From NCBI GenBank assembly GCA_021324655.1, contig JAJPIP010000037.1, positions 1 to 34,825 of the forward strand: a DNA stretch of 34,825 nucleotides, read 5' to 3'. The notes below the pieces were generated by a model that worked only from the letters and a program-made list of their open reading frames with translations, had not been told where the DNA came from and searched no databases. The position numbers were made by a program, and so were the translations under genes. This document shows positions 5,692 through 34,825 of the stretch, in pieces. How positions within the stretch are numbered: the first letter of the stretch is position 1; each line of letters opens with the position of its first letter. Origin of the DNA: Pseudomonadota bacterium (lineage in GTDB: Bacteria; Chloroflexota; UBA5177).

Positions 5692-6723
5692 TCAGCCGCC
5701 GGCAGCCGTCTCGAAGATCTGCGCAGCGGTCTGCGAGCCGGCGCGGGCAAGATAGACCATCCCGATCACGGTGACGGGGAGAAACACCACCGCGTGACAG
5801 GCGAGGGCGGCCGCGACGGCGGGCGTGCGAGCGACGCCGTACAGTCCGAGCATGAGGACCATGACGTAATCGAAGACGCCAATGTACGCCGGCGCGGCCG
5901 GGACAGCCATGCTGAGGAAGAGCACCGCGGTGAGGAGCACGACGCCGGCCGGCGGGAGCTGGATGTCGAAGGCTGCGAGGGCAAGCCACACCTGCACCAC
6001 CGTGGCCGCCCAGATGAGGCACGTCCAGACGACAAAGGAGGCGGCCGATGACCCGGAGTGTAGTGCCCTGACCCCCGCCGTGACTTGCTGGAGAACACCG
6101 CCGACGCGGGTCTCTCGATAACGTCCGAAGATCCACCAGGCTCGCCGGCCCGTCCGCATGAGGGCAGCGACGAGGATGAGGCCTCCCAGGATCAGGGCGC
6201 CCAGGACGCCGGCGACGACGGCCGTCATCAGGATGCGGGGCGGCAATGCGACGCTCGGGGCGAGGACAAACAGGATCACGCATAGCGTCAGGCCATCTGC
6301 CACGCGCTCGACAGCAATGGTGGATATTGTACGAACCAGGCTGATGGTCCCTTGCCGTGCCAGCCAGTACGCGCTCACCAGGTCGCCTATGCGGGCCGGG
6401 AGCAAGGTGTTGACGGCATAGCCGACGTTGAGGGCAGCGAATAGGACATTGCGGCCGGGGCTGTCCGCGCCGAGCAGTACCCGCCAGCGCTCCACCTTGA
6501 GAAACAGGATAGCGACTGACGGAGTCACGGCGGCAGCCAGCAGCCAGTAGTTGGCGCGCGACAGCGTGCGCACCAGGACATGGCCGTTGACGCCGCGGAG
6601 CAGCAGAACGATGAGCACGATCCCGAGGACCGTCCCGACGGTCAGCGAGATCAGGCGGGGCAGTGCGCGGCGAAGGCGTCCAGGGGACGAGCTACCGGCC
6701 AGGGGTGCCGGCGAAATAGACAT
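5692..6723 (-). CDS. MprF-flippase-like integral membrane protein (UPF0104 family)
   Basis: About 343 residues from ATG 6723, nearly all membrane-embedded with 7-8 helices. It matches the LPG_synthase_TM/UPF0104 family: LKVERWRVLLG after the second helix, then a characteristic LNVGYAVNTLLPARIGDLVSAYWL-type stretch and TISTIAVERVADG. In MprF this module flips aminoacylated phosphatidylglycerol; stand-alone relatives are thought to move lipids or lipid-linked sugars. A TTG at 6768 would add 15 residues, but it lies in a GC hairpin with no ribosome site, so ATG 6723 is preferred, although its own ribosome site is weak. It faces the DUF2156 synthase gene across two tiny genes, suggesting a split MprF system, but the large glycan neighbourhood to the right is an alternative partner. 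Confidence 0.8.
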   Translation of the reverse strand: MSISPAPLAGSSSPGRLRRALPRLISLTVGTVLGIVLIVLLLRGVNGHVLVRTLSRANYWLLAAAVTPSVAILFLKVERWRVLLGADSPGRNVLFAALNVGYAVNTLLPARIGDLVSAYWLARQGTISLVRTISTIAVERVADGLTLCVILFVLAPSVALPPRILMTAVVAGVLGALILGGLILVAALMRTGRRAWWIFGRYRETRVGGVLQQVTAGVRALHSGSSAASFVVWTCLIWAATVVQVWLALAAFDIQLPPAGVVLLTAVLFLSMAVPAAPAYIGVFDYVMVLMLGLYGVARTPAVAAALACHAVVFLPVTVIGMVYLARAGSQTAAQIFETAAGG

Positions 6724-6751
6724 CAATCCAGATAACGGCGAGACACGCTGA

Positions 6752-6782
6752 TATAATGCCGCGGCCAAGAGCCGGCCGCGGC
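6752..6782 (+). promoter_or_regulatory. TATAAT box followed by a GC hairpin, upstream of the methyltransferase
   Basis: A perfect TATAAT sits at 6752-6757 in the divergent region, followed directly by a 9-base perfect stem, GCCGCGGCC (6758-6766) and GGCCGCGGC (6774-6782), with a 7-base loop. No good -35 is seen at 16-19 bases. The hairpin has no T-run, so it is not an intrinsic terminator. If the box is used, the plus-strand transcript would start inside or just at this hairpin. Confidence 0.35.
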
Positions 6783-7623: not shown

Positions 7624-9420
7624 ATGCAATTGCCCTTCTCCCACGCGATTCGCGCCGAACGGCCGGCTGCCGAAGCCACCCGATTCGGCGCACTGGCGAC
7701 ACTCGCCGCGCGCGTTGATCCGCTATTCCTCTTCCTGCTCGGCGTGGGCGTGATTCTGCGCCTGCTCGACGTGAACTGGGACCAATCCACGCACATCCAC
7801 CCGGACGAGCGCTTCCTTACCATGCTGGGCACGGCCATCCAGATGCCGCACAGCCTCGTCCAATACTTCGATCCCACCACCTCGCCGATGGCGCCGTACA
7901 ACAACTCGGTTGGGAAATTCATGGTCTATGGCATGCTGCCGATCGACCTGAACAAGGTGATCGCGGTCGTCCTGGGAAACGACAACTACAACAACTTTGT
8001 GCTACAGGGCCGGGTTCTGGCCGCATTCGCCGACAGCGCGGTGTTAGTCCTGGTCTTCGCCTCCGCACGCCTGCTCGAGCGCAAGGGATTGCCGCCGCAG
8101 GTCAAGTATTGGGCGCTGGCACTCTACGCCGTCACGGTTTTTCCGATCCAGCTGGCGCACTTTTTCGCGACCGATGCCTTCCTCAATGCCTTCATGTTCG
8201 GGTCGTTCTACTTTTCCCTGCGCTACGCGCTGTGTCGGGGGGACGGGAACCTCATCGCGGCGGCGGTCATCTTTGGATTCGCCGTGGCGACGAAGGTCAA
8301 TGCGGTCTATATCCTCCCTCTCGACATCTATCTGATCCTGCTGCCGCTGGTCCCCGCCGCCGACCACGACCTGCTCCGAGTCGTGCGCACCGTCCGCGCT
8401 GAGAGCCGGCCGGACCTCGGCCGTCTCGCCCTCCGGGCCATTGGGGTCGTCCTGACCTTCGGCATAGTCTCGTATCTCGCGCTCCGCCTCGGCGACCCGT
8501 ACATGTTCCAGAGCGCCAACCCGATTGACCCCCGCCTCAACATCAACTTCTACTCGAGTCTCAAGCAGCTCGAGGGCATGTACGGCCCCAGCCCGTATTA
8601 CCCTCCGGCCATCCAGTGGATGAACAAACCGCCCCTGGTCTTTGCCCTGATCAATATGGCCGTGTTCGGCCTCGGGATACCGTACTTTCTGCTGGTCGTG
8701 GCCGGCGGGTACGTCCTGTGGCACCGGCGCCAGGGCGGTATCCTGGCCGTTTGCCTCCTCTGGACGGTCGCTTTCTTCCTGTACCAATCGACTTCCTGGG
8801 ACAAGACGATGCGCTATTTCATCTTCCTGTACCCGTTTCTCGCCGTCTTCGCCGGCATCGGCGCTTACGCTCTGCTGCGCTCGCTGCCCTACCTCGCTCG
8901 GGTCGCCATTGTCGCGACGCTCCTCGTGTGGCCTCTGGCTTTCCTGTCCATCTACCTGCATCCTCTCTCACGAGTGACGGCCTCAGAGTGGATGTACGCC
9001 AATCTCCCGAACAACAGCACCATCCTCTGCGAGGAATGGGATGACTGCCTTCCGCTCGGCGTGCCGAATCCGGCCGGCAAGACGTTCAACACGGTCACGA
9101 TCCACAGCTTCTACTATCCCGATGACGCCACCAAGTGGCAGGCTTTGAACGCTGCCCTCAACCAGGGGAACTACCTGGTGCTGTCGTCGAATCGTGGCTG
9201 GGGGAGCATGCCGACCGCGCCGCAAGATTTCCCACGCATGACGGCCTTTTATCACGACCTCTTTGCCGGAAAGACCAGCTACCGGCTGGTGGCCGAGTTC
9301 ACGTCGTACCCGTCGTTGCGTTGGCTGGGAATCCCCATCGACTTTCCCGACCAGTGGTCGGAGGAAGCGTTCACGGTGTACGACCATCCCGAGGTCATGA
9401 TCTTCGAGCACATCCGGTGA
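7624..9420 (+). CDS. GT-C membrane glycosyltransferase (PMT/GT39-like)
   Basis: A 598-residue polytopic membrane protein with about 10-12 hydrophobic segments and a soluble C-terminal part. The first outward loop contains HPDERF (Asp61-Glu62), the acidic pair expected in PMT/ArnT-type GT-C enzymes, followed by a long loop before the next helices; these enzymes use a polyprenyl-phosphate sugar on the outer membrane face. The region YYPPAIQWMNKPPLVFALINM and the C-terminal EWDDCLPLG are typical of the Chloroflexota/archaeal large members. Start ATG 7624 has no clear ribosome site and may be read by coupling from the methyltransferase 15 bases upstream. The next GT-C gene overlaps its stop in a GTGA. 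Confidence 0.85.
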   Translation: MQLPFSHAIRAERPAAEATRFGALATLAARVDPLFLFLLGVGVILRLLDVNWDQSTHIHPDERFLTMLGTAIQMPHSLVQYFDPTTSPMAPYNNSVGKFMVYGMLPIDLNKVIAVVLGNDNYNNFVLQGRVLAAFADSAVLVLVFASARLLERKGLPPQVKYWALALYAVTVFPIQLAHFFATDAFLNAFMFGSFYFSLRYALCRGDGNLIAAAVIFGFAVATKVNAVYILPLDIYLILLPLVPAADHDLLRVVRTVRAESRPDLGRLALRAIGVVLTFGIVSYLALRLGDPYMFQSANPIDPRLNINFYSSLKQLEGMYGPSPYYPPAIQWMNKPPLVFALINMAVFGLGIPYFLLVVAGGYVLWHRRQGGILAVCLLWTVAFFLYQSTSWDKTMRYFIFLYPFLAVFAGIGAYALLRSLPYLARVAIVATLLVWPLAFLSIYLHPLSRVTASEWMYANLPNNSTILCEEWDDCLPLGVPNPAGKTFNTVTIHSFYYPDDATKWQALNAALNQGNYLVLSSNRGWGSMPTAPQDFPRMTAFYHDLFAGKTSYRLVAEFTSYPSLRWLGIPIDFPDQWSEEAFTVYDHPEVMIFEHIR

Positions 9421-10952
9421 CGGTCATCGCCGAACCGGATCTCCGGCGGCACAGTGGCGCCGACCGGGAAACCTCGTACCGCAATGAGGCGTTGCTCGTG
9501 GCCGCTCTCACGCTGCTGGGTCTGGCCATCCGGCTCTACCGCCTCGATACCATCCCGGCCGAAATGTGGGGTGATGTCCTCTTCCACCACTACCTCGCGA
9601 GTCTGGTTCTCGGCCACCAGTTTTATCTGGACTACCGGTTCGGCGGTGACGGACCAATGCTCTCGTACATCATCGCCGGCCTCTCCGCCCTCTTCGGGCT
9701 CACCTTCTTCACCATCAAGCTCGCGACTGTCCTGGCCGGAACTCTGCTCGTCCCTCTGGACTACCTGCTCACCCGCCAACTTTTCGGGCGCCGCGTCGCT
9801 GCGATCGCCGCTCTCCTGACCGCGATCTCCTTCTGGGCAATCACCTTTTCTCGTCAGGGTAAGCCGTACATCCTGGCCGCGGTCTTCTTCGCCCTGGCGC
9901 TGTGGCTCGTCTTGAGCGGCCGGCAACTCCTGGGCGGTGTCGCCCTCGGCCTCGGCATGTACACACAGGCCGCTTTCTGGGGGGCACCGCTGGCGTTCGT
10001 CACTACGCCCTACGTTCTGCTCTGGGGGGCCATCGTGGCCCTGCCCGTGATCGTTAATTTCGCCCGCAATCCGAGCGCGCTGCTCGGTTCCAGCAGCTAC
10101 ATCGGCTCCAAGCTCCACCAGCAACACTCGGCCACCGGGATCGTCCTGCGGGTTCTCGATAACATCTGGCGGGACATCCTCTCCTACAACGTCCGCGGCG
10201 ATGCCACCTTCCGCCATAACATCCCCTACCACCCCAATCTCGATCGGCTCAGCGGCATCTTCTTCGTGCTCGGCGTGGCATTGATTCTGTGGCGCATCGG
10301 CCATCACAGGGACTGGAGACTCCTGAAGTGGGTGGTCATTCCCTTCGCCGTCATCCAGATCCCCTCGGTGCTGGATCAGACGGCGAGCAATATACCGGCG
10401 ATGGGTCGGATGGTCGGCGCCGTGCCGCTCACCATGGCGACGATCGCCTATGCCCTTGACCGCACGGCGATGGTGTCCCTGTTCTGGCTGCGTCGCCTCT
10501 CCCACCCCCGGCTTGTCGTGGGGAGCACGCTCGCCGCGGTCCTCATCGTCATTTTCGGCATCAACTTCTACAACTACTTCGTCGTCTATCCACGCACGCT
10601 TCCCAACGGCAACACACCTTTTGGCGCCACCATCGCCACCCGGATCGATCAGACGTCACCGCGGACGTATTCTTTCGTCATCGGTTGTTGTTGGGGCGAC
10701 TGGGGGCAGCCGGAGCCGGATGCCGTGTCGGAGGTCGTGACCGCGCACCGTTATGTAATCACGGTGCAGACGTTCCAGGATGCGGCATCGCAAATCTCCA
10801 CGCTACCCCGCGGCAGTCACGTCCTGCTCTTCATGGATCCCGCCACGCCGTCCGCGCTGTACGCGACCCTACCGGTCCGTGTCGCGTCATCCTGGGTCTT
10901 GCGCCGCAACGGCTGGGATGTCGCCCGGGTCCTCGGCGGCCGGTCGCTATAA
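9417..10952 (+). CDS. GT-C membrane glycosyltransferase (GT39-like)
   Basis: A 511-residue polytopic protein. The start is GTG 9417, whose GTGA overlaps the previous gene's TGA; the same frame is open back to 9135 but that would overlap the neighbour by 286 bases. After the first helix comes YRLDTIPAEMWGDVLFHH (residues 41-58), with Glu49 and Asp53 as likely GT-C acidic residues, then a series of about ten helices including FWAITFSRQGKPYILAAVFF. The C-terminal soluble part is short. It is probably an outward-facing transferase using a lipid-linked sugar, working with the preceding gene. Donor and acceptor cannot be assigned. Confidence 0.82.
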   Translation: MTVIAEPDLRRHSGADRETSYRNEALLVAALTLLGLAIRLYRLDTIPAEMWGDVLFHHYLASLVLGHQFYLDYRFGGDGPMLSYIIAGLSALFGLTFFTIKLATVLAGTLLVPLDYLLTRQLFGRRVAAIAALLTAISFWAITFSRQGKPYILAAVFFALALWLVLSGRQLLGGVALGLGMYTQAAFWGAPLAFVTTPYVLLWGAIVALPVIVNFARNPSALLGSSSYIGSKLHQQHSATGIVLRVLDNIWRDILSYNVRGDATFRHNIPYHPNLDRLSGIFFVLGVALILWRIGHHRDWRLLKWVVIPFAVIQIPSVLDQTASNIPAMGRMVGAVPLTMATIAYALDRTAMVSLFWLRRLSHPRLVVGSTLAAVLIVIFGINFYNYFVVYPRTLPNGNTPFGATIATRIDQTSPRTYSFVIGCCWGDWGQPEPDAVSEVVTAHRYVITVQTFQDAASQISTLPRGSHVLLFMDPATPSALYATLPVRVASSWVLRRNGWDVARVLGGRSL

Positions 10953-16074: not shown

Positions 16075-16099
16075 ACGTGCTGCGTTGCAGCACGTTTTT
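16075..16099 (+). terminator. intrinsic terminator between the fabI operon and the DUF2298 genes
   Basis: A perfect 9-base stem, ACGTGCTGC (16075-16083) and GCAGCACGT (16087-16095), has a 3-base loop and runs into TTTTT (16095-16099). It lies 55 bases past the fabI-operon stop and 28 bases before the preferred DUF2298 start at 16127. Because a promoter-like element lies before it, it may end the upstream transcript, act in the DUF2298 leader, or both. Confidence 0.75.
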
Positions 16100-16126: not shown

Positions 16127-18976
16127 TTGATCCCGCACCGCCGTCCGCTGGCGGCACCAGCCTCCGCCTCGGCCCCTGCTCTTCTACTCGCCGCATCTCT
16201 CGTCGTGGCCGCGGCGGCAGTGGTCGGCCTGCATGTCGCCCGCGCCGACGTCTCTCTCCTGCTGACTCCATCGCAATGGGCAGCCGACGCCGCGGGACCG
16301 ACTCTCGATCAAATGTTCCCCCCGAACGGGTTCGCGATGCAGCACCCAGTTCTGGTGTGGTGGGGCACACTGGAATTGCTCGGGTTCCTGGCCTTCCCCA
16401 TCGCCGCGCTGTGGCTGCGCCGGCTCTGTGACTGCGGCTTCGTCATCGCCAAGACCGTCGGCGTCGTCCTCCTCGCGTGGTTCGTCTGGTTTCCGGTCAG
16501 TGTGGGCGTGGGCTTCTACGACAATACCGCCATTTTCTTCGCGCTCGGCGTCCTGTTCCTGATCTCCGGAACCGTCACACTGCTGAAGCGCGCGACGCTG
16601 GTTCGGGCCGTGCGCGATAACTGGCGTCTCATGTTGACGGCAGAAGCGGTCTTCGCCGCCGGCCTGGTGCTGTTTATCTTGCTGCGGCTGTGGTATCCGG
16701 ATCTCGGGCACCAGTTTTCACCGGTGTCCGGAACCAATGCCGGATCGGGTCGAATGGGTGAGAAGCAGATGGAGCTTGCCTTCCTGACGGCCACCGTGCG
16801 CAGCCGCGTCTTCCCACCCTACGACCCGTTCTACGCCCACGGCATCATCAATTACTACTATTACGGCTACGTGTTGGTCGGTACACTGTGCAAGCTGACC
16901 CACATCGCTCCGGTGGTCGGCTTCAATCTCGCCGTCGCGTCCCTCTTCCGACTCCTGCTGGGCACCGTCTTCACGATCGGCGCGTCTCTCACCCGCCGCA
17001 TCCTCCCCGGGCTGGTGTCGGCGCTGTTTGTCGGACTGATCGGCAATCTCGCCGGAGGCATTGCGTTCTGGAACGAACTCATTGCCGCCGGCTCACTGCA
17101 CTCGAGCGTTCCCGTCCTTGGCGGACTTGTCGACGGCATTTCGGGCTTGATTGCCGTTCTCGCCGGATCCGCTCGTTTGCCTGCCTACGACTTCTGGGGG
17201 CCGACGCGCATCATTCCGCCGGCTGGAATCGACTTCGCGGAATTCCCGTACTTCACGTATCTCTTCGGCGACCTACACGCGCATCTCATCGCCTATCCTC
17301 TGGTCGCCGCTCTGGCAGCGCTTGCGGTTCAACTCGTCCTGGAACACGACCAGTCCACGGCGCGGCTCGCCCTGTCGTCTCTCCTCGCCGGGCTGGTGCT
17401 GGCGGCGCTTCTCGCGACGAACCCCTGGGACTTCCCCACGGCGCTCGTGATCATCGCCATCGGGTCCGGCGTCGGCGGTTATGCCGTTCGGCGGCGGCTC
17501 AGCGTCGCCTGGCTCACACGCTCCGCGTGCTGGCTGGTCACGCCGGCGGCGCTGGCCGTCGTCTTTGCCTTCCCCTTCGAGGCGCACTACCAGACCGTCT
17601 TCGCGAGTGGTATCGGCACCACCAGTGGCATCGCGGCCTCCAGTCTGCAGGGCCTGTGTAGTGGCAACCCCGCTCCTTGCAGTCAGGTCGTGCACGACAT
17701 CCTGGCCACGCCGCTCAGCGTCTACCTCCAGCAGTTTGGTCTCTTCGCCTTTATCCTCCTCTCATATCTGCTGGTTCTGCTGGGCATGGAGGCAGGCGGT
17801 CTCGACTGGATTCGGCGCTCCGCGCGCGCCGCGCAATTCGCACACTACTATCGTGACCGTCTCGCCCACGTCCGCCATGCGTTTCGGGTCGCCCGCCGGC
17901 TTTCGCCACGTCGTCCGGCCCCGGTCGATGGGGCGATTGCCGCGGGTGCGCTGATACTTATTGCCGGCCTCCTTGTATACGGGTACGTCCTGATGGCCTT
18001 CCTTGCTCTGTGGGGCGCTCTGGCCGTCTTGCTGTTGCTCCGGCTGGGACCGGCACTTGATCGCGCCGAACTCTTTATCCTGGCGCTCGTGCTGGTTCCA
18101 CTCGGAATCTCTTTCCTCACGCAGCCGTTCTATATCCGTGACTTCCTGGACGGCGGTGCCGCCTTCCGGATGAACACCATCTTCAAGTTCTACAACCAGG
18201 TCTGGCTGTTGCTCGCGGTGTTATCCGCAACCTCGCTCACGTTTCTCGCTCGGCGGGTTGTCGCAACCCGGACCAGGGTTCCAGAACCACGTCCGGAACC
18301 CGTTCTCGTGGGAGCGCCCGCTCTTCTCGCTCCCCCACCTCAAGCCGAAACAGAGAGTGGCCAGGAGCAACAGCATCCCCTCTGGACCTTCGTCCAGCGC
18401 TACCCCGTGTGGGGCGCGGCGTTCGCCGTCCTGCTTGCCGCCTCCGTGGTATACACCGGCGCGGGCACAGTCGCCCGTGAGACCTACCGCACAACCTGGC
18501 TACCGGAAAGTGCCGTTCCGCTCACACTTGACGGCATGGCCTTCATGCGAGTTGCCTATCCAGGCGACTTTCACGCTATTACCTGGCTGAACGGCCATGC
18601 GGCCGGCGCGCAGGTGATCGCGGAGGCGTACGACTGTAATTCCACGTACAACTGGTACTCGCGCGTCGCGACGTTCACCGGACTGCCGGATATCGTCAAC
18701 GGCTACCATGAGGACGAGCAGCGTCCCTTTGGCAGGTGCGTGGATCCGCGCACCGCCGACCTGAAGACCCTCTACAGTACCAGCTCGCCTTCCACTGCCT
18801 GGAGCATCATTCACCGTTACGGCGTCCGCTATATCTACGTCGGATTCCTGGAGCGGCATTGCCTGGATGTCTGCTACCCGAGGGCGGGCCTCGCTAAGTT
18901 TGATCGTATGGTCGGTCACGGGCTGCGCCTCGCCTATCACTGGCAGGACACCGACATCTACGAGGTGACCGCATGA
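16127..18976 (+). CDS. DUF2298 (Chlor_Arch_YYY) large polytopic membrane protein, first of a pair
   Basis: About 949 residues with some 18-20 hydrophobic segments. NYYYYGY is at residues 242-248. Further landmarks are EKQMELAFLTA and PPYDPFY before it, PTRIIPP and EFPYFTYLFGDLHAH ending near 386, NPWDFPT, and RMNTIFKFYNQVWLLLA, all hallmarks of the family. Family members resemble GT-C glycosyltransferases in topology, but no activity is established. A long extracytoplasmic C-terminal part follows the last helices. TTG 16127 is preferred because GGAAGAGAG lies 5 bases upstream; TTG 16085 sits in the loop of the terminator hairpin. Its stop overlaps the start of the second paralogue in ATGA. 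Confidence 0.88.
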   Translation: MIPHRRPLAAPASASAPALLLAASLVVAAAAVVGLHVARADVSLLLTPSQWAADAAGPTLDQMFPPNGFAMQHPVLVWWGTLELLGFLAFPIAALWLRRLCDCGFVIAKTVGVVLLAWFVWFPVSVGVGFYDNTAIFFALGVLFLISGTVTLLKRATLVRAVRDNWRLMLTAEAVFAAGLVLFILLRLWYPDLGHQFSPVSGTNAGSGRMGEKQMELAFLTATVRSRVFPPYDPFYAHGIINYYYYGYVLVGTLCKLTHIAPVVGFNLAVASLFRLLLGTVFTIGASLTRRILPGLVSALFVGLIGNLAGGIAFWNELIAAGSLHSSVPVLGGLVDGISGLIAVLAGSARLPAYDFWGPTRIIPPAGIDFAEFPYFTYLFGDLHAHLIAYPLVAALAALAVQLVLEHDQSTARLALSSLLAGLVLAALLATNPWDFPTALVIIAIGSGVGGYAVRRRLSVAWLTRSACWLVTPAALAVVFAFPFEAHYQTVFASGIGTTSGIAASSLQGLCSGNPAPCSQVVHDILATPLSVYLQQFGLFAFILLSYLLVLLGMEAGGLDWIRRSARAAQFAHYYRDRLAHVRHAFRVARRLSPRRPAPVDGAIAAGALILIAGLLVYGYVLMAFLALWGALAVLLLLRLGPALDRAELFILALVLVPLGISFLTQPFYIRDFLDGGAAFRMNTIFKFYNQVWLLLAVLSATSLTFLARRVVATRTRVPEPRPEPVLVGAPALLAPPPQAETESGQEQQHPLWTFVQRYPVWGAAFAVLLAASVVYTGAGTVARETYRTTWLPESAVPLTLDGMAFMRVAYPGDFHAITWLNGHAAGAQVIAEAYDCNSTYNWYSRVATFTGLPDIVNGYHEDEQRPFGRCVDPRTADLKTLYSTSSPSTAWSIIHRYGVRYIYVGFLERHCLDVCYPRAGLAKFDRMVGHGLRLAYHWQDTDIYEVTA

Positions 18977-21240
18977 ACGTCGTCACCTGGATCGTCGCGC
19001 TCGAGATCCTCTCACTCGCCTTTCTGCCCCTCACTTTCTGGGCAATGGGCGCTCTGCCGGACCGCGGCTACATCTTCGCGCGCATCCTTGGCCTGCTGCT
19101 CGTCACCTATGTGACCTGGCTGATCGGTCTCGTCATCCCGATCGGCTCCTCTCCCGTGCTTCCGGCTGCCGTTCTCCTTCTCTCAGCCGGCATAGGTTGG
19201 TGGCGCTGGGGAGGCGACGTAGTTTCCGGCGTGCGCCGGCTGCGGGGCGTGATCCTGGTCGAAGAAGGCATCTTCTTGGTGGCACTGGTCATCTGGAGTG
19301 TCTTGCGCGTGTACTCGCTCGGAAGCGCCATCAACCACACCGAGCAATTCATGGACATGGCGCTGTTGAATGCCTCGTATCACAGCGCATCCTATCCGCC
19401 GTATGACCCGTGGATGAGCGGCCTCTCCGTCCACTACTACTACCTGGGCTATATGCTCTTCGCCACCCTGGGCAAACTGGCGTTGACGCCGCCTGCGGTT
19501 GCCTTCAATCTCGCGAACTCGACCATCGTGGCGTGCGTGGCCGGGGCTGCTTACTCACTCGGGTACGCTCTGACGCGACGTCTCTCGTGGGCTGCCCTGG
19601 CGCCTCTCTTCGTGGGCTTCATCGGTAACTGGCATGCGGCGCTCTGGGAAGCAGCGCATGGCGCCTGTGCGACGACCGGAACCTTCTACGGTTGGTTCTG
19701 GCCCAGCACGCGCGTCCTGGGCAGCGGAGCGACGCTTGCCAACTGGGGTAGTCCCCCGGCACCGTGCACCGCCCCGTATACCGCGATCACCGAGTATCCG
19801 CTGTTCAGTTTCATCCTGGGCGACCTCCATCCCCACGTGATGGCGCTACCTTTCGTGCTTCTCGTTTTGGGGCTCGCGGCGTCGATTCTGTTGTCCGAGG
19901 GGGCATGGGATGCGCGCAAAGATGCTGGTCGGTTTGTCCTGCTCGCGGTCGCGGCGGGCGCCCTCTTCGGCATCAACAGCTGGGATTTCCCTACCTATCT
20001 CTCGGTGGTGGTAGCGGCCATCATCGCACACGCCTACCTGCATGACGACTCGCCACGCTGGTGGCAACGGCCCGTCGTGACATGCGTAGGATTGGCCATC
20101 CTGGCGGTCGTCCTGTATGCCCCTTTCTACGTCGAGTTACGCGGACTCAGTCACGGGATCGGTCGGGTGACGACGCCGACGGACTTCTTCGAATTCATCC
20201 AGGTCTTTGGCCTGTTCGCACTGGCAATCGCTCTGCTCCTCAGCAGCCTGGGGCTGCTCCTGCAACCGGCCGCCGAGGACGCGGAAGAAAGCACGGCAGT
20301 CCCCGAGTTGATCGGCGAGAGCGGTCAGGCATCGGACGGACTGATCCTCACGGTGTCGGCCGCGGCCATTCTCGTCGCCGGGATTCTGCTACACGCCATC
20401 GTGCTGGCCCTGCTCCTGCTGGCAGCCGCCGGGGCGCTCATCCTTCTCTACCGCGTCCTGAATGCCGAGCAGCCGAATCGTGGTGATGCGCTGGCTCTTA
20501 TTCTGGTCATCGTGGGCGTTGCCGCCGTCGCGCTGCCGGAGCTCGTCTATCTGCGCGATGCCTTTGACAACTCCGCACTGTATCGCATGAATACCGTGTT
20601 CAAGTTCTATTACCAGGGCTGGATCCTGCTTGGCGTCGCCGCCGCGTACGGCGCATACCGATCGTGGATCGTTCTGCCCCGCCTCGTCCCGGCCGCTGCA
20701 GCGCGGAGTACCCTCGTCGCGGTCGCGGCGGGAACGGCGGCCGCCGGCATCTATACGTTCTGGACGCCCACGACGAATGTCGCGGCCGGCCCCCAGTCGC
20801 TCGACGGCTCAGCCTGGGTCGCCCAGCAACACCCCGGCGACGCCGCCGGTATCCACTGGCTGGAGGCGCATGTGTCGGGCAGTCCGACCATTCTTGAGGC
20901 GGTGGGAGCTCCCGGCTCACCTGGTGGGGACTACACTCCTCCTGCTGCCGAGTACTCGACCTTTACCGGCCTGCCGACAGTCATGGGCTGGACTGGACAC
21001 GAGGAGCAGTGGGGGCGGTCCTCGGCCACCGTCGGCGGCCGGGAATCGGATGTCGTGACTATCTACAAGTCGCTCGACTGGCCCCACGCCGCCTCGCTGC
21101 TGCACGAGTACCGGATTCAATACGTGGTCGTGGGCTCGAATGAGCAGGCCCTGTATGGCAACTCCGGCGGCCTCAACAAGTTCGGGCAGCACATGCGTAC
21201 GGCGTTTTCGGCACCGGGGATTACCATCTATACGTGGTGA
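18973..21240 (+). CDS. DUF2298 (Chlor_Arch_YYY) membrane protein, second of a pair
   Basis: A 755-residue polytopic protein, paralogous to the preceding gene and sharing its motifs in the same order: EQFMDMALLNA and PPYDPW, HYYYLGY (154-160), PSTRVLG, EYPLFSFILGDLHPH (ending at 288), NSWDFPT, RMNTVFKFYYQGWILLG, and a C-terminal soluble region with FTGLPTVMGWTGHEEQW. It is shorter because the first 100-200 residues and internal loops are reduced. It starts in an ATGA overlap, indicating coupled synthesis and perhaps a complex of the two. A GT-C-like transferase role on the outer face is an inference from topology and neighbourhood. Confidence 0.9.
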   Translation: MNVVTWIVALEILSLAFLPLTFWAMGALPDRGYIFARILGLLLVTYVTWLIGLVIPIGSSPVLPAAVLLLSAGIGWWRWGGDVVSGVRRLRGVILVEEGIFLVALVIWSVLRVYSLGSAINHTEQFMDMALLNASYHSASYPPYDPWMSGLSVHYYYLGYMLFATLGKLALTPPAVAFNLANSTIVACVAGAAYSLGYALTRRLSWAALAPLFVGFIGNWHAALWEAAHGACATTGTFYGWFWPSTRVLGSGATLANWGSPPAPCTAPYTAITEYPLFSFILGDLHPHVMALPFVLLVLGLAASILLSEGAWDARKDAGRFVLLAVAAGALFGINSWDFPTYLSVVVAAIIAHAYLHDDSPRWWQRPVVTCVGLAILAVVLYAPFYVELRGLSHGIGRVTTPTDFFEFIQVFGLFALAIALLLSSLGLLLQPAAEDAEESTAVPELIGESGQASDGLILTVSAAAILVAGILLHAIVLALLLLAAAGALILLYRVLNAEQPNRGDALALILVIVGVAAVALPELVYLRDAFDNSALYRMNTVFKFYYQGWILLGVAAAYGAYRSWIVLPRLVPAAAARSTLVAVAAGTAAAGIYTFWTPTTNVAAGPQSLDGSAWVAQQHPGDAAGIHWLEAHVSGSPTILEAVGAPGSPGGDYTPPAAEYSTFTGLPTVMGWTGHEEQWGRSSATVGGRESDVVTIYKSLDWPHAASLLHEYRIQYVVVGSNEQALYGNSGGLNKFGQHMRTAFSAPGITIYTW

Positions 21241-26936: not shown

Positions 26937-27860
26937 ATGGTAATCATGGAGGGACGCCGCGCTAGTTCGGTCGTTGCAGCACGACAGAGGTTCCGTGACA
27001 GGGCCCCACGGGTCAGCGTGATCGTACCAGCGCTCAACGAAGAGCGGAACATTCCATATGTGCTGACGCGCCTGCCGTTCGATCTCCATGAGGTCATTTT
27101 GGTCGATGGGCACTCCACGGACGCGACGGTCAAGGTGGCTCAGGCAATTCGGCCGGATATCCGCGTCGTGCAACAAACGCGGCGCGGTAAGGGGAACGCT
27201 CTCGCCTCCGGCTTCGCGGCCTCGACAGGGGACATCATAGCCATGGTGGATGCCGACGGCTCGACCGATCCCGCGGAACTGCCCCGTTTTGTGGCCGCCC
27301 TACTCACCGGCGCCGACCTTGCCAAAGGAAGTCGCTTCGCTCCGGGCGGCGGTAGTGCGGATATTACACGCATTAGAGCACTCGGCAATCGCGGCCTCTG
27401 CACGCTCGTCAATGCCCTGTTTCGGGCGCGTTACAGCGACCTCTGCTATGGGTACGTGGCATTCTGGCGTGACTGCCTCCCCCACCTCAACGTCGACTGC
27501 GACGGGTTCGAGGTGGAAACACTCATATGTATTCGGGCGGCCAAGGCAGGCCTGACCATCCATGAGGTCCCAAGCCACGAGGGACAGCGTGTCCACGGCC
27601 TCAGCAATCTGAACGCCCCTCGGGACGGGATGCGCGTCCTCAGGACTATACTCTTTGAGGCTCTGGCGCGGCACCGGCTCGAAGCCGGCAGTGATCGCTT
27701 GCCCGGGTACGGATGGGATGGAGTCGAGCGCCGGCTCAGCGACCGCCGTGGATCAGCGTTGCGTCCTCATCCGCACCGCCGTGCGTCTGATCGTTCAGTG
27801 ATGCCGTCACTTGCTGCATTCGCCGACATCGCCGACTCTGAGAGAGTGACTGAAATCTAG
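26937..27860 (+). CDS. GT2-family glycosyltransferase (dolichol-phosphate-sugar synthase-like)
   Basis: A 307-residue GT-A fold enzyme. VSVIVPALNEERNI (26-39), VDGHSTD (56-62), GKGNALASGF and the DxD-type metal site VDADGS (104-109) are those of the DPM1/UDP-glucose:polyprenyl-phosphate branch of GT2. Such enzymes make polyprenyl-phosphate sugars used by GT-C transferases. No C-terminal membrane helices are present; the end is an Arg-rich linker (GVERRLSDRRG). ATG 26937 follows GGGGGGAT. As first gene of the operon it could supply the lipid-linked donor for the GT-C enzymes elsewhere in the window, an inference. Confidence 0.87.
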   Translation: MVIMEGRRASSVVAARQRFRDRAPRVSVIVPALNEERNIPYVLTRLPFDLHEVILVDGHSTDATVKVAQAIRPDIRVVQQTRRGKGNALASGFAASTGDIIAMVDADGSTDPAELPRFVAALLTGADLAKGSRFAPGGGSADITRIRALGNRGLCTLVNALFRARYSDLCYGYVAFWRDCLPHLNVDCDGFEVETLICIRAAKAGLTIHEVPSHEGQRVHGLSNLNAPRDGMRVLRTILFEALARHRLEAGSDRLPGYGWDGVERRLSDRRGSALRPHPHRRASDRSVMPSLAAFADIADSERVTEI

Positions 27861-27868
27861 GCTTGAGG

Positions 27869-28813
27869 ATGCTCCGGGTCTCTGTCGTCATCTGCGCGCA
27901 CACGGCGCGACGATGGGATGATCTCCTTCGCGCCGTGCACTCGGTGCAGAATCAGACGGCATCGCCGTCTGAGGTTGTGATCGTCGTCGATCACAACGAC
28001 CTGCTGCTCCGCCGGATACGTGATGAGATCAGCGGAGTGGTTGTGATTCCGAACACGGGCACACCCGGGCTGGGCGGGGCACGAAACAGCGGGATCGCCG
28101 CGGCTACCGGCGACATTGTGGCATTTCTCGACGACGATGCTCGGGCGTCGGCCGGGTGGCTCGAAGCCATGCTGCACGCCTACGAGAACTCGGATGTATC
28201 CGGCGTCGGCGGTAGCATCGAACCGGTCTTCGACGGATCTCGACCCCCCTGGTTCCCGTCCGAGTTCGATTGGGTCATTGGCTGTACTTACCGCGGATTG
28301 CCCACGGGGCCAACCCCCGTTCGCAATCTCTTCGGTGCCAATATGTCGTTTCGCCGCTCTGTCTTCGACGCTGTTGGTCAGTTCCGACTCGGCTACGGTT
28401 GCGATGAAACGGAGTTGTGCATAAGGCTGCGGCAGCGTATGCCCGGCTGGATCTTGCTGTTCGAGCCGGCCATGCGCGTTGGTCACCGTGTCCCGTCCAA
28501 TCGTGTGACCTGGCGTTACTTTCTGCGTCGCTGTTTCTTCGAAGGCGGATCGAAAGCCGTGGTGTCCCATCTGCGCGGAGCAAGCGACGGTTTGCAGAAT
28601 GAACGCGACTACACGAGGCGCGTCCTGCCGGCAGGAGTGAAACGAAACATGGGCGAAGCCCTGCGCGGCGATATCGGCGGTCTCGGGCGAGCACTCGCCA
28701 TCGTCGCCGGACTCGCTGCCACCACGGCCGGCTACGCAGCCGGCTTAGCGGCTCTTGACCGTGCCGCCGCGCGGCGCGGATGGACAGGTCAGTTGTCAGG
28801 CCAGGAGGCGTAA
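27869..28813 (+). CDS. GT2-family glycosyltransferase with C-terminal membrane segment
   Basis: About 314 residues. The N-terminal VSVVICAHTARR begins the GT-A fold. GGARNSG (69-75) and FLDDDA (87-92) give the nucleotide-sugar/metal site, GANMSFRR follows the acceptor loop, and CDETELCIR is the usual ED/catalytic-base region. A hydrophobic stretch near residues 272-290 could anchor it to the membrane. This arrangement resembles archaeal-type glucuronosyl/dolichyl-phosphate GT2 enzymes, but the sugar is unknown. TTG 27863 and ATG 27869 are both in frame; ATG is used. It follows the first GT2 gene by 8 bases. Confidence 0.85.
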   Translation: MLRVSVVICAHTARRWDDLLRAVHSVQNQTASPSEVVIVVDHNDLLLRRIRDEISGVVVIPNTGTPGLGGARNSGIAAATGDIVAFLDDDARASAGWLEAMLHAYENSDVSGVGGSIEPVFDGSRPPWFPSEFDWVIGCTYRGLPTGPTPVRNLFGANMSFRRSVFDAVGQFRLGYGCDETELCIRLRQRMPGWILLFEPAMRVGHRVPSNRVTWRYFLRRCFFEGGSKAVVSHLRGASDGLQNERDYTRRVLPAGVKRNMGEALRGDIGGLGRALAIVAGLAATTAGYAAGLAALDRAAARRGWTGQLSGQEA

Positions 28814-33607: not shown

Positions 33608-34825
33608 TCATTCTCCAGTCAGGTGAGCTGGAACCTTAGACACGATGTACCGGTGTTTCCCGGATGCACCGTGCTCGATGTTCTCGACCACCATGGCGTG
33701 CACGCGCAACTGCGGGTCAATATTCTCGTGGATGGCAGCTTCGACGCTCGGCAGCGCCGTAGGCTCGAACTCGGGGCCCGGCACGACCAAAATCGTGAGC
33801 TCGCCGGGAGTTTCTTGGATGGCTTGAAAGCGCCGCACCCCAGGAACCCCCGCCATCAGCCGGTTGAGTAGTAACCCATGAATGATCCGGCCCGAGGGCG
33901 TCGTGACCAAATCGGTTGCGCGGCCCTCGAGAGTAGACATGACCGGAAACGGCAGGCCACAGGAGCATCGCTTCTCGGAGAGGGTTCCGACATCGCCCAC
34001 CATATACCGCAGCAGCGGCATTGCATAGTTGTCCAGGTTCGTCACAGCGATATGCCCGGGCGAGCCCGAGACAGGCTTGCCGTCGTCGGTTAGGAACTCG
34101 ACGACATGGAGATCAGTAAACAGGTGATATCCGCGGTGAGCGATGCATTCATGCGCGGCGGTTGCCGCCTCCGTCGTCCCGTAGCGGTCGAAAACCGGGC
34201 AGTCAAAGAATTCCTCGAGCAGCGCGCGTTGGGTGGGGAAAAGGGTTTCCGCCGTCGTAACAATCGCATTCGGTTTGATCCCACCGATTCCCTCGTCGCG
34301 CATCAGATGAACGAGGGCGATGAGAGAAGCAGAGAAACCGACAAGGAGTCGTGGTTGGAAACTCCGTAACTCACGGGCGTACCGTGCCATGTCTTGACGA
34401 CTCATCCCGTACGAATCGAGGAAGAGTTGATTGATGCCGGCATCGACGAGCCGGTACTTCAAAGCCTTTTTTTTGCTCCGATCGAGCGGGCGGCCCCATA
34501 CAATGGCGGCGGGGTCGCCGGGCGTCCAGCCGGCCAGGTCATATCCACGTTCGATGCTGGCGATACTTATCGACCACGAACGGTCATCCTGGACGTACTG
34601 AAATGGATCTCCGGTCGAACCGCCGGTTGGAACGAGGCGGGTTGCTCCCTGCCCTTCGGGCATCGATCGCGCAATGAGATCTTCCCTGTTTTCCTGAATG
34701 TCGCGCTTCGCGAGCAGTGGGATCTTGGTGAGGTCGCCTGCCTCCTGAATAGCGGAGGGCTGGAGACCTAGCTCCTGGAAGAGGCGGCGGTAGTAGGGCG
34801 TGTGCTCGTAGGCATGGTGCACCAG
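33608..34825 (-). CDS. PaaK/CapK-like adenylate-forming enzyme (5' end outside the window)
   Basis: At least 405 residues of a phenylacetate-CoA ligase-like protein; the frame stays open to the right edge, and the start of the family (about 40-60 more residues) is missing. It opens with HHAYEHTPYYRRLF, carries the AMP-binding P-loop VPTGGSTGDPFQY, the acyl-site motif DRYGTTEA, and RYMVGDVGTL near the hinge, with a CSCG Cys pair and a C-terminal lid domain. CapK-type relatives sit in capsule and exopolysaccharide loci and are thought to activate an acyl group for glycan decoration. GTG 34822 is in frame but unlikely to be the true start. Confidence 0.88.
   Translation of the reverse strand: MVHHAYEHTPYYRRLFQELGLQPSAIQEAGDLTKIPLLAKRDIQENREDLIARSMPEGQGATRLVPTGGSTGDPFQYVQDDRSWSISIASIERGYDLAGWTPGDPAAIVWGRPLDRSKKKALKYRLVDAGINQLFLDSYGMSRQDMARYARELRSFQPRLLVGFSASLIALVHLMRDEGIGGIKPNAIVTTAETLFPTQRALLEEFFDCPVFDRYGTTEAATAAHECIAHRGYHLFTDLHVVEFLTDDGKPVSGSPGHIAVTNLDNYAMPLLRYMVGDVGTLSEKRCSCGLPFPVMSTLEGRATDLVTTPSGRIIHGLLLNRLMAGVPGVRRFQAIQETPGELTILVVPGPEFEPTALPSVEAAIHENIDPQLRVHAMVVENIEHGASGKHRYIVSKVPAHLTGE

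Follow-up and report, generated by a model that had tools for sequence, protein, structure and literature searches.

Tandem DUF2298 proteins of a Chloroflexota contig: a predicted GT-C fold, conserved residues on the outer face and association with TIGR03663/Agl23

The 34,825-nucleotide (nt) stretch analyzed here, referred to below as the window, is the entire contig JAJPIP010000037.1 of assembly GCA_021324655.1, from a genome deposited as a Pseudomonadota bacterium and placed by GTDB in the Chloroflexota. Near its center lie two genes for large membrane proteins of the family DUF2298, which we call copy A and copy B; a profile search of the genome's contigs yielded these two DUF2298 genes only. 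They are arranged as follows:

16127..18976, forward strand: DUF2298 copy A, 949 amino acids (aa) from a TTG start, or 963 aa from the TTG at 16085
18973..21240, forward strand: DUF2298 copy B, 755 aa
18973..18976, forward strand: ATGA overlap between the stop of copy A and the start of copy B

An earlier note on this DNA, made from the letters alone, had described paralogues of 949 and 755 residues coupled by ATGA, and we found both open reading frames (ORFs) and the overlap. Because GGAAGAGAG, directly upstream of 16127, resembles a ribosome site on inspection of the sequence, we regard 16127 as a better start for copy A than the further in-frame TTG upstream. In profile searches, both copies match the whole PF10060 (DUF2298) model (A, 2e-87; B, 1.9e-102) and match TIGR03662 (Chlor_Arch_YYY) nearly end to end (A, 423.8 bits; B, 496.8 bits; cut-off, 300.25), placing them above the curated cut-off for PF10060/TIGR03662. 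The profile alignment of A with B also runs end to end (hhalign probability 100, 753 columns), and every motif that had been named for the pair is present in both translations, in identical order.

Full-text literature searches on the family names returned no paper describing a function for DUF2298, in line with the statement in the earlier note that none is established. Papers are cited here by PMC number; in one of them, DUF2298 adjoins a PMT2/PA14 protein in the appendix neighbour table (PMC8756737). Of 301 genomes sampled from the window's phylum, 196 contain DUF2298 (E<1e-20), as do 44 of 100 genomes from one archaeal phylum (E<1e-40). No relatives were confirmed among viral contigs.

Structures were predicted for single chains from alignments of 70 B-type and 53 A-type sequences. 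The model of B has a predicted local distance difference test score (pLDDT) of 90.5 and a predicted template modeling score (pTM) of 0.93; the corresponding values for A are 85.1 and 0.88, with residues 1-69 poorly modeled. In Foldseek searches, all 13 matches of the B model at E<=0.001 are GT-C proteins (AglB, DPY19, AftA, STT3), the next match being a transporter at E 0.062, and all four matches of the A model at E<=0.001 are GT-C as well. In the VIA structure comparison, yeast STT3 ranks first for both copies, with Z 18.1 for B (475 residues aligned, 7.5 Å) and Z 18.0 for A, and is followed for both by AglB, ALG12, ArnT, Pmt4, AftA, DPY19 and PglB; the first plainly unrelated row has Z 7.6 (B) or 6.6 (A). 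The B model scores Z 16.0 with AglB, 15.5 with ArnT, 15.5 with Pmt4 (352 residues, 4.4 Å) and 15.1 with AftA (500 aligned residues, model residues 17-755, 5.5 Å), and AftA aligns over 500 residues with the A model, too. Both models share one layout, in which three extra N-terminal helices precede a 13-helix core and a dome on the outside. The dome of B (residues 614-755) superimposes on the globular domain of AglB-S2 with Z 11.5 (2.6 Å over 115 residues), and that of A (the last ~140 residues) with Z 12.5 (2.8 Å over 122 residues). As judged from these models, copies A and B each possess a GT-C fold, consistent with the GT-C-like topology that had been proposed for them. DUF2298 may already be a member of the GT-C clan of Pfam.

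Motifs were then placed by loop and membrane side, correspondence with AglB being assigned by loop position and motif rather than by residue alignment. Lysine and arginine are enriched in the predicted inner loops (for B, mean 0.13-0.26, as opposed to 0.00-0.10 in the outer parts). The polar residues that 90% or more of the rows share are distributed very unevenly between the two faces: 31 outside, nine in helices and none inside for B, and 36 outside, six in helices and none inside for A. Those of the core loops sit in outer loops 1, 2, 3 and 6 (EL1, EL2, EL3 and EL6) of both copies, the same four loops in which conserved residues of GT-C enzymes are reported to lie (PMC6801728). The residues of most interest are these:

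16760..16762, forward strand: Glu212 of A, at the tip of the first outer-loop helix; invariant in the 53 A-type rows; candidate catalytic base
19342..19344, forward strand: Glu124 of B, in the equivalent position; found in 90% or more of the 70 B-type rows; candidate catalytic base
17270..17284, forward strand: DLHAH of A (382-386) in EL2; candidate metal motif
19819..19836, forward strand: GDLHPH of B (283-288) in EL2; D-x-H like that of the second DXD motif of AglB
18167..18193, forward strand: RMNTIFKFY of A (681-689); candidate donor-phosphate site
20584..20610, forward strand: RMNTVFKFY of B (538-546); candidate donor-phosphate site

In GT-C enzymes an acid of the first outer loop follows soon after the first core helix (PMC6801728), a place taken here by Glu212 and Glu124, after which the models show the first outer-loop helix (213-225 in A, 125-137 in B). 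The base of PimE is likewise located at such a helix tip, the JM1 apex (PMC12041525), and Glu71 is the presumed single-Glu base of DPY19 (PMC10154233). The D-L-H of GDLHxH lies in the second outer loop, directly ahead of transmembrane helix 4 (TM4); in AglB, the second DXD motif, which is metal-binding and also belongs to the second outer loop, reads Asp161-His-His163 (PMC8342417). Loop 3 of both copies has a conserved N, and STT3 and DPY19 have N or Q in loop 3 in place of the usual R/K (PMC6801728). Since the EL1 Glu, the EL2 D-x-H, the EL3 N and the EL6 R are kept at a level of at least 90% in both A and B, neither copy seems dead. For these statements we relied on aligned columns, because regular expressions undercount the motifs (DLHxH in 118, D[LMF]H in 148 and strict E..M[DE] in 134 of 172 copies). 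The invariant GDLHxH and the acidic segment, which had been put forward from the sequence as candidate catalytic or metal sites, therefore lie in loops holding the catalytic or metal residues of GT-C enzymes, on the outer side; a fold lacking the GT-C core, or motifs scattered over surfaces away from a cavity, had been named beforehand as contrary outcomes, and checking by loop and membrane side revealed neither.

Across genomes, DUF2298 is accompanied by TIGR03663, which NCBI names 'flippase activity-associated protein Agl23'. Within the window's phylum (n=301; both families at E<1e-20), TIGR03663 is present in 189 of the 196 DUF2298-positive genomes and in only 4 of the 105 others (Fisher 9e-66; tables were counted by hand). 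In two of these four (G001, G041) DUF2298 is cut by a contig end, while G214 and G222 are without such an explanation. In the archaeal phylum (n=100; DUF2298 at E<1e-40, TIGR03663 at its curated cut-off), the identical 44 genomes encode both families, and none of the other 56 encodes TIGR03663 (Fisher 2e-29); five genomes with weak DUF2298 matches (E 1e-10 to 1e-7, reaching the curated cut-off) were scored negative here. TIGR03663 was also found in all ten genomes chosen via their DUF2298 loci, six of them archaeal. Haloferax volcanii is among the archaea that carry both families. The pattern holds in bacteria and archaea.

Gene neighborhoods were surveyed at loci of which the 80 named ones are the best-scoring of 582 against a query that was largely B-type, so that the fractions describe a biased set; the counts exclude three duplicate loci (L105-L107), ORFs truncated by a contig end, and solo copies shorter than 650 or longer than 1100 aa. 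Where 800 nt or more of downstream sequence was available (94 bacterial solo copies), the gene directly 3' of B (gap <=400 nt) is TIGR03663-type by our own profile in 68, and a TIGR03663-type gene lies within 9 kb of B in 77. At full-length archaeal solo loci, TIGR03663 adjoined DUF2298 in none of six, and the two are 7-9 kb apart in several genomes of the archaeal phylum. By co-occurrence and by gene-neighbor statistics, the latter suggested in the earlier note as a check, the strongest partner is TIGR03663/Agl23 and not a second DUF2298. In one archaeal cluster (L197) the gene order is TIGR03663, flavin adenine dinucleotide (FAD) amine oxidase, GT2, DUF2298, DUF2298, flippase-like TIGR00374 and GT2; in another (L196), DUF2298, a flippase-like gene, GT2 and amine oxidase adjoin one another. 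The nearest named model for the GT2 proteins of these clusters is a dolichyl-phosphate hexose transferase, which they match below its cut-off.

In H. hispanica, Agl23 is a putative Glc-/Gal-P-dolichol flippase for extracellular N-/O-glycans, and translocation of lipid-linked oligosaccharide by purified Agl23 has been reported (PMC11182771). All six TIGR03663-type proteins tested are PMT_2-type GT-C by Pfam, and an acid near the first loop is conserved in 75 of 79 TIGR03663 rows. Agl23 may be a flippase, a transferase or both, and because it is itself a PMT_2-type GT-C by Pfam, the two GT-C families may act together. Two further features of these loci were observed. An FAD amine-oxidase-like gene (NF005560/PRK07233) recurs beside DUF2298/TIGR03663 in archaea and bacteria (19 of 116 loci), scoring 538 bits at L197:3799-5067 and 450 bits at L196:5478-6704 and occurring also at L111:15201-16490; modification of the sugar or of the carrier lipid is a possible role of its product. 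Behind TIGR03663 proteins, NHL beta-propellers were seen at L065:9575-12580 and L201:2336-5056.

In 49 ORFs of the fetched loci (a count that leaves out L105-L107), copy A is fused behind an N-terminal region, X, a GT-C of the PMT_2 type in which HPDE is invariant; the resulting X-A proteins are about 1,400-2,700 aa long, and giants with an X-A-A'-TPR architecture, in which tetratricopeptide repeats (TPR) come last, occur at L063, L075 and L092. The fusion is invisible in the window because its X homologue is a separate gene there, although copy A carries a trace reminiscent of the junction:

7624..9420, forward strand: free-standing X homologue (PMT_2 GT-C, HPDE)
16250..16300, forward strand: linker-like motif SLLLTPSQW..GPT, residues 42-58 of A, resembling the X-A joining motif of fused relatives

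The N-terminus of the window's A contains a hydrophobic stretch that could serve as a membrane anchor. As the number of extra helices is odd, the N-terminus of A is predicted to be outside; fusion to X would fit this topology, since the C-terminal part of X should end on that side. Among five close genomes, X is fused (G003, G023, G050) or free (G000, G014) but never both; a sixth, G032, has a weak X match (5.7e-9) and an A gene cut at a contig end. While the window's A shares 48-52% identity with the A-type copies from its family, the 7624-9420 protein shares just 31-32% with the fused X of G050, G003 and G023, and G014, whose A is free, carries its orthologue at 49-69%. Both fast divergence and replacement are possible as the history of this gene. 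Two unusual fusions were also noted: at L088:5992-12990, a weakly recognizable DUF2298 repeat (residues 696-1348), possibly a dead GT-C, lies between X and the intact copy, and at L178:13324-18156, on a contig of the Binatia, one protein unites X with DUF2298 and an NHL propeller.

In a tree of 93 rows (LG+G4, quick search), A and B form two old clades with an SH-aLRT of 99 on each side, archaeal copies grouping with B; the Binatia rows (L178) have long branches and break the pattern. These two clades rule out a recent tandem duplication as the origin of A and B. Two archaeal loci have unusual arrangements: at L175:676-2817, DUF2298 is divided between consecutive ORFs of 396 and 307 aa, which may be a gene split or an assembly error, and at L197:5778-10146 an archaeon has two tandem DUF2298 genes, of 717 and 737 aa.

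Taken together, the fold of the models, the sidedness, the conservation, the fusions and the co-occurrence lead us to the view that DUF2298 proteins are probably surface glycosyltransferases that use polyprenyl-phosphate-sugar in the Agl23 pathway. That they are extracytoplasmic glycosyltransferases had been suggested from the sequence, and the GT-C fold of both copies with its active side outside agrees with this suggestion. We envisage that a cytoplasmic GT2 enzyme would make polyprenyl-phosphate-sugar, which would cross the membrane, and that DUF2298, on the membrane's outer face, would move the sugar from the lipid to a surface acceptor, probably a glycoprotein glycan or a surface polysaccharide. 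The conserved EL1 Glu (Glu212 or Glu124) may act as base, the EL2 D-x-H may, together with it, hold either a divalent metal or the donor, while the Arg/Lys of RMNTxFK may bind the lipid phosphate. DUF2298 would act in one pathway with TIGR03663/Agl23; in Chloroflexota, the old duplicate A would have become linked to X, and A, B and X of the window would be three transferases of one surface-glycan pathway.

Several observations weigh against this interpretation or limit its reach. Whole-chain root-mean-square deviations to single GT-C structures are 5-8 Å over 450-500 residues, so what DUF2298 and GT-C enzymes have in common is an architecture and not close kinship. A phmmer search with B showed no sequence relation to solved GT-C enzymes, and a profile of the 70 B-type rows gave chance matches only when compared with them (e.g., triosephosphate isomerase). 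Even between B and the PMT_2 domain of the fusions, profile comparison gives a probability of just 19.9%, so that their kinship is argued from the fold alone. Arg538 and Lys544 of B are conserved but have no conserved following Pro in loop 6, whereas in eukaryotic GT-C enzymes the Arg/Lys of the last luminal loop is followed by Pro 4 to 14 residues on (PMC6801728). Non-catalytic GT-C proteins, namely chains of the glycosylphosphatidylinositol (GPI) transamidase (PIG-U type), are among the structural matches, at Z <=10.8. Related genomes are non-independent samples, which makes the Fisher p-values too small; the true TIGR03663 genes of the window's genome (290 and 299 bits) lie on another contig, C93; and co-occurrence and neighborhoods name neither donor nor acceptor. 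It is by reasoning from these materials that we infer the activity of DUF2298, its donor, acceptor and metal and the roles of single residues.

An extension of this interpretation, to which we give limited credence, is an assembly line for surface glycans composed of DUF2298, X and Agl23, in which the GT-C sites would work sequentially, Agl23 would be a transferase and DUF2298, in bacteria and archaea alike, its obligate partner. If so, several active sites, kept together and sometimes located on one polypeptide of 2,300-2,700 aa (X-A-A'-TPR), would add one sugar each from polyprenyl-phosphate-sugar in a fixed order.

The earlier note had further proposed that tandem A and B form one heteromeric enzyme, which would be compatible with their being surface glycosyltransferases. 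The ATGA overlap in the window and the maintenance of A and B as separate old clades speak for such a complex, as does the closeness of X-A to B: of 90 bacterial solo copies with 1.5 kb or more of upstream sequence, 36 have an X-A ORF within the preceding 500 nt and 42 within the preceding 4.5 kb. However, B occurs without A in archaea and at many bacterial loci. No X-A gene lies near B at any of the six full-length archaeal solo loci, and the DUF2298 copies of the 100-genome archaeal phylum are all of solo length; of 24 hand-picked genomes, 13 or 14 have a single copy of solo length, the single-copy cases of other kinds being G208 (80% complete, X-A frame only) and G265 (contig-cut). In six genomes (G188, G094, G198, G212, G072, G148) A and B are on different contigs, and each has the full set of motifs and so may be a complete enzyme. 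With A usually fused to X and TIGR03663/Agl23 as the near-obligate partner, the heteromer as originally stated is not supported, and we regard it as a doubtful prospect.

Less probable still is that DUF2298 is a non-catalytic GT-C subunit that serves TIGR03663/Agl23 or X as a scaffold or by binding the acceptor, in the manner of PIG-U in the GPI transamidase. The GPI transamidase chains among the structural matches, the near-obligate pairing with another GT-C family and the fusion to X would all suit such a subunit, but conservation of the EL1 acid, EL2 D-x-H, EL3 N and EL6 R at a level of at least 90% is the pattern of an active enzyme, and the one degenerate copy we encountered, in the giant at L088, looks different. 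A role as translocase of polyprenyl-phosphate-sugar, as proposed for Agl23, is quite unlikely: although the partner family is named for flippase activity and its purified member is reported to translocate, DUF2298 has no conserved polar residues on the inner side, where cargo binding would also be required, and the archaeal clusters already contain the flippase-like TIGR00374 gene. Least credible is transfer of whole glycans to protein as by an oligosaccharyltransferase (OST), for although STT3 is the top structural match and the 13-helix core, AglB-like dome and EL2 motif are shared, OST-specific features are missing, in that the models of A and B have no EL5 loop (TIXE/SVSE), with only 3 (B) or 2 (A) residues between TM9 and TM10, and a pattern like the WWDYG of the OST globular domain occurs in 1 of 172 DUF2298 copies.

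For the window as a whole, the abundance of lipid-linked sugar genes asserted for it proved broadly right. Its sugar genes comprise two PMT_2, two GT2 and two GT4/GT1 genes, a PF00953 enzyme, epimerases, a GHMP kinase and a Polysacc_synt gene; those discussed here are:

9135..10952, forward strand: second PMT_2 gene, matching TIGR03663/Agl23 at 29.6 bits, below the cut-off; start probably nearer 9450
5692..6768, reverse strand: LPG_synthase_TM gene, of the same flippase-like Pfam family that adjoins DUF2298 in archaeal clusters
26937..28813, forward strand: two GT2 genes (26937-27860 and 27863-28813)

The two GT2 enzymes are possible makers of the polyprenyl-phosphate-sugar donor. At the end of the window, a 404-aa ORF (33608-34822, reverse strand) has no Pfam match at 0.01; by eye, its product looks similar to the adenylate-forming enzymes of the PaaK/CapK type that polysaccharide clusters encode.

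The families PF10060 and TIGR03662 are already catalogued, and the original TIGRFAM notes may tie TIGR03662 to TIGR03663 and describe the TPR class; if so, the fold assignment and the TIGR03662/TIGR03663 pairing may be partly known to annotators. As far as our literature searches show, what is new is the co-occurrence measured in both domains of life, the two old subfamilies, the finding that the region fused in front of A is itself a GT-C, and the resemblance of the loop motifs to those of AglB. With a GT-C assignment and an exact partner, a family without a function becomes a testable enzyme, one that offers a transferase for a pathway whose Agl23 is currently described as a putative flippase; the candidate residues can be mutated in archaea having genetic tools.

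Among known systems, DUF2298 is closest in architecture to STT3/AglB/PglB, with which it shares the 13-helix core, an AglB-S2-like dome, an acid in EL1 and a D-x-H in EL2, but it has three extra N-terminal helices and no sequence similarity to them; in EL1, where OSTs have a motif of the D-x-D type, DUF2298 has a Glu without D-x-D. DPY19, AftA, ArnT and Pmt4 resemble it in fold (Z 14.6 to 15.5) and, in the case of Glu71 of DPY19, in the acid, while their motifs differ. TIGR03663/Agl23 is a separate, shorter family, of which two of six proteins tested carry an NHL propeller. The giants of Chloroflexota are like TMTC-type GT-C proteins with TPR in layout only, the repeats of these giants standing behind the GT-C domains. 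A further likeness is to three- or multi-component transmembrane glycosylation, for which a scheme of GT2, flippase and GT-C has been described (PMC8035078), and the archaeal L196 and L197 clusters encode GT2, flippase-like and DUF2298 proteins; those systems, however, use other GT-C proteins (e.g., YfhO) and often GtrA flippases. In the window, the GT2, translocase and GT-C parts are spread and unlinked, whereas in the archaeal L196 and L197 loci they are clustered.

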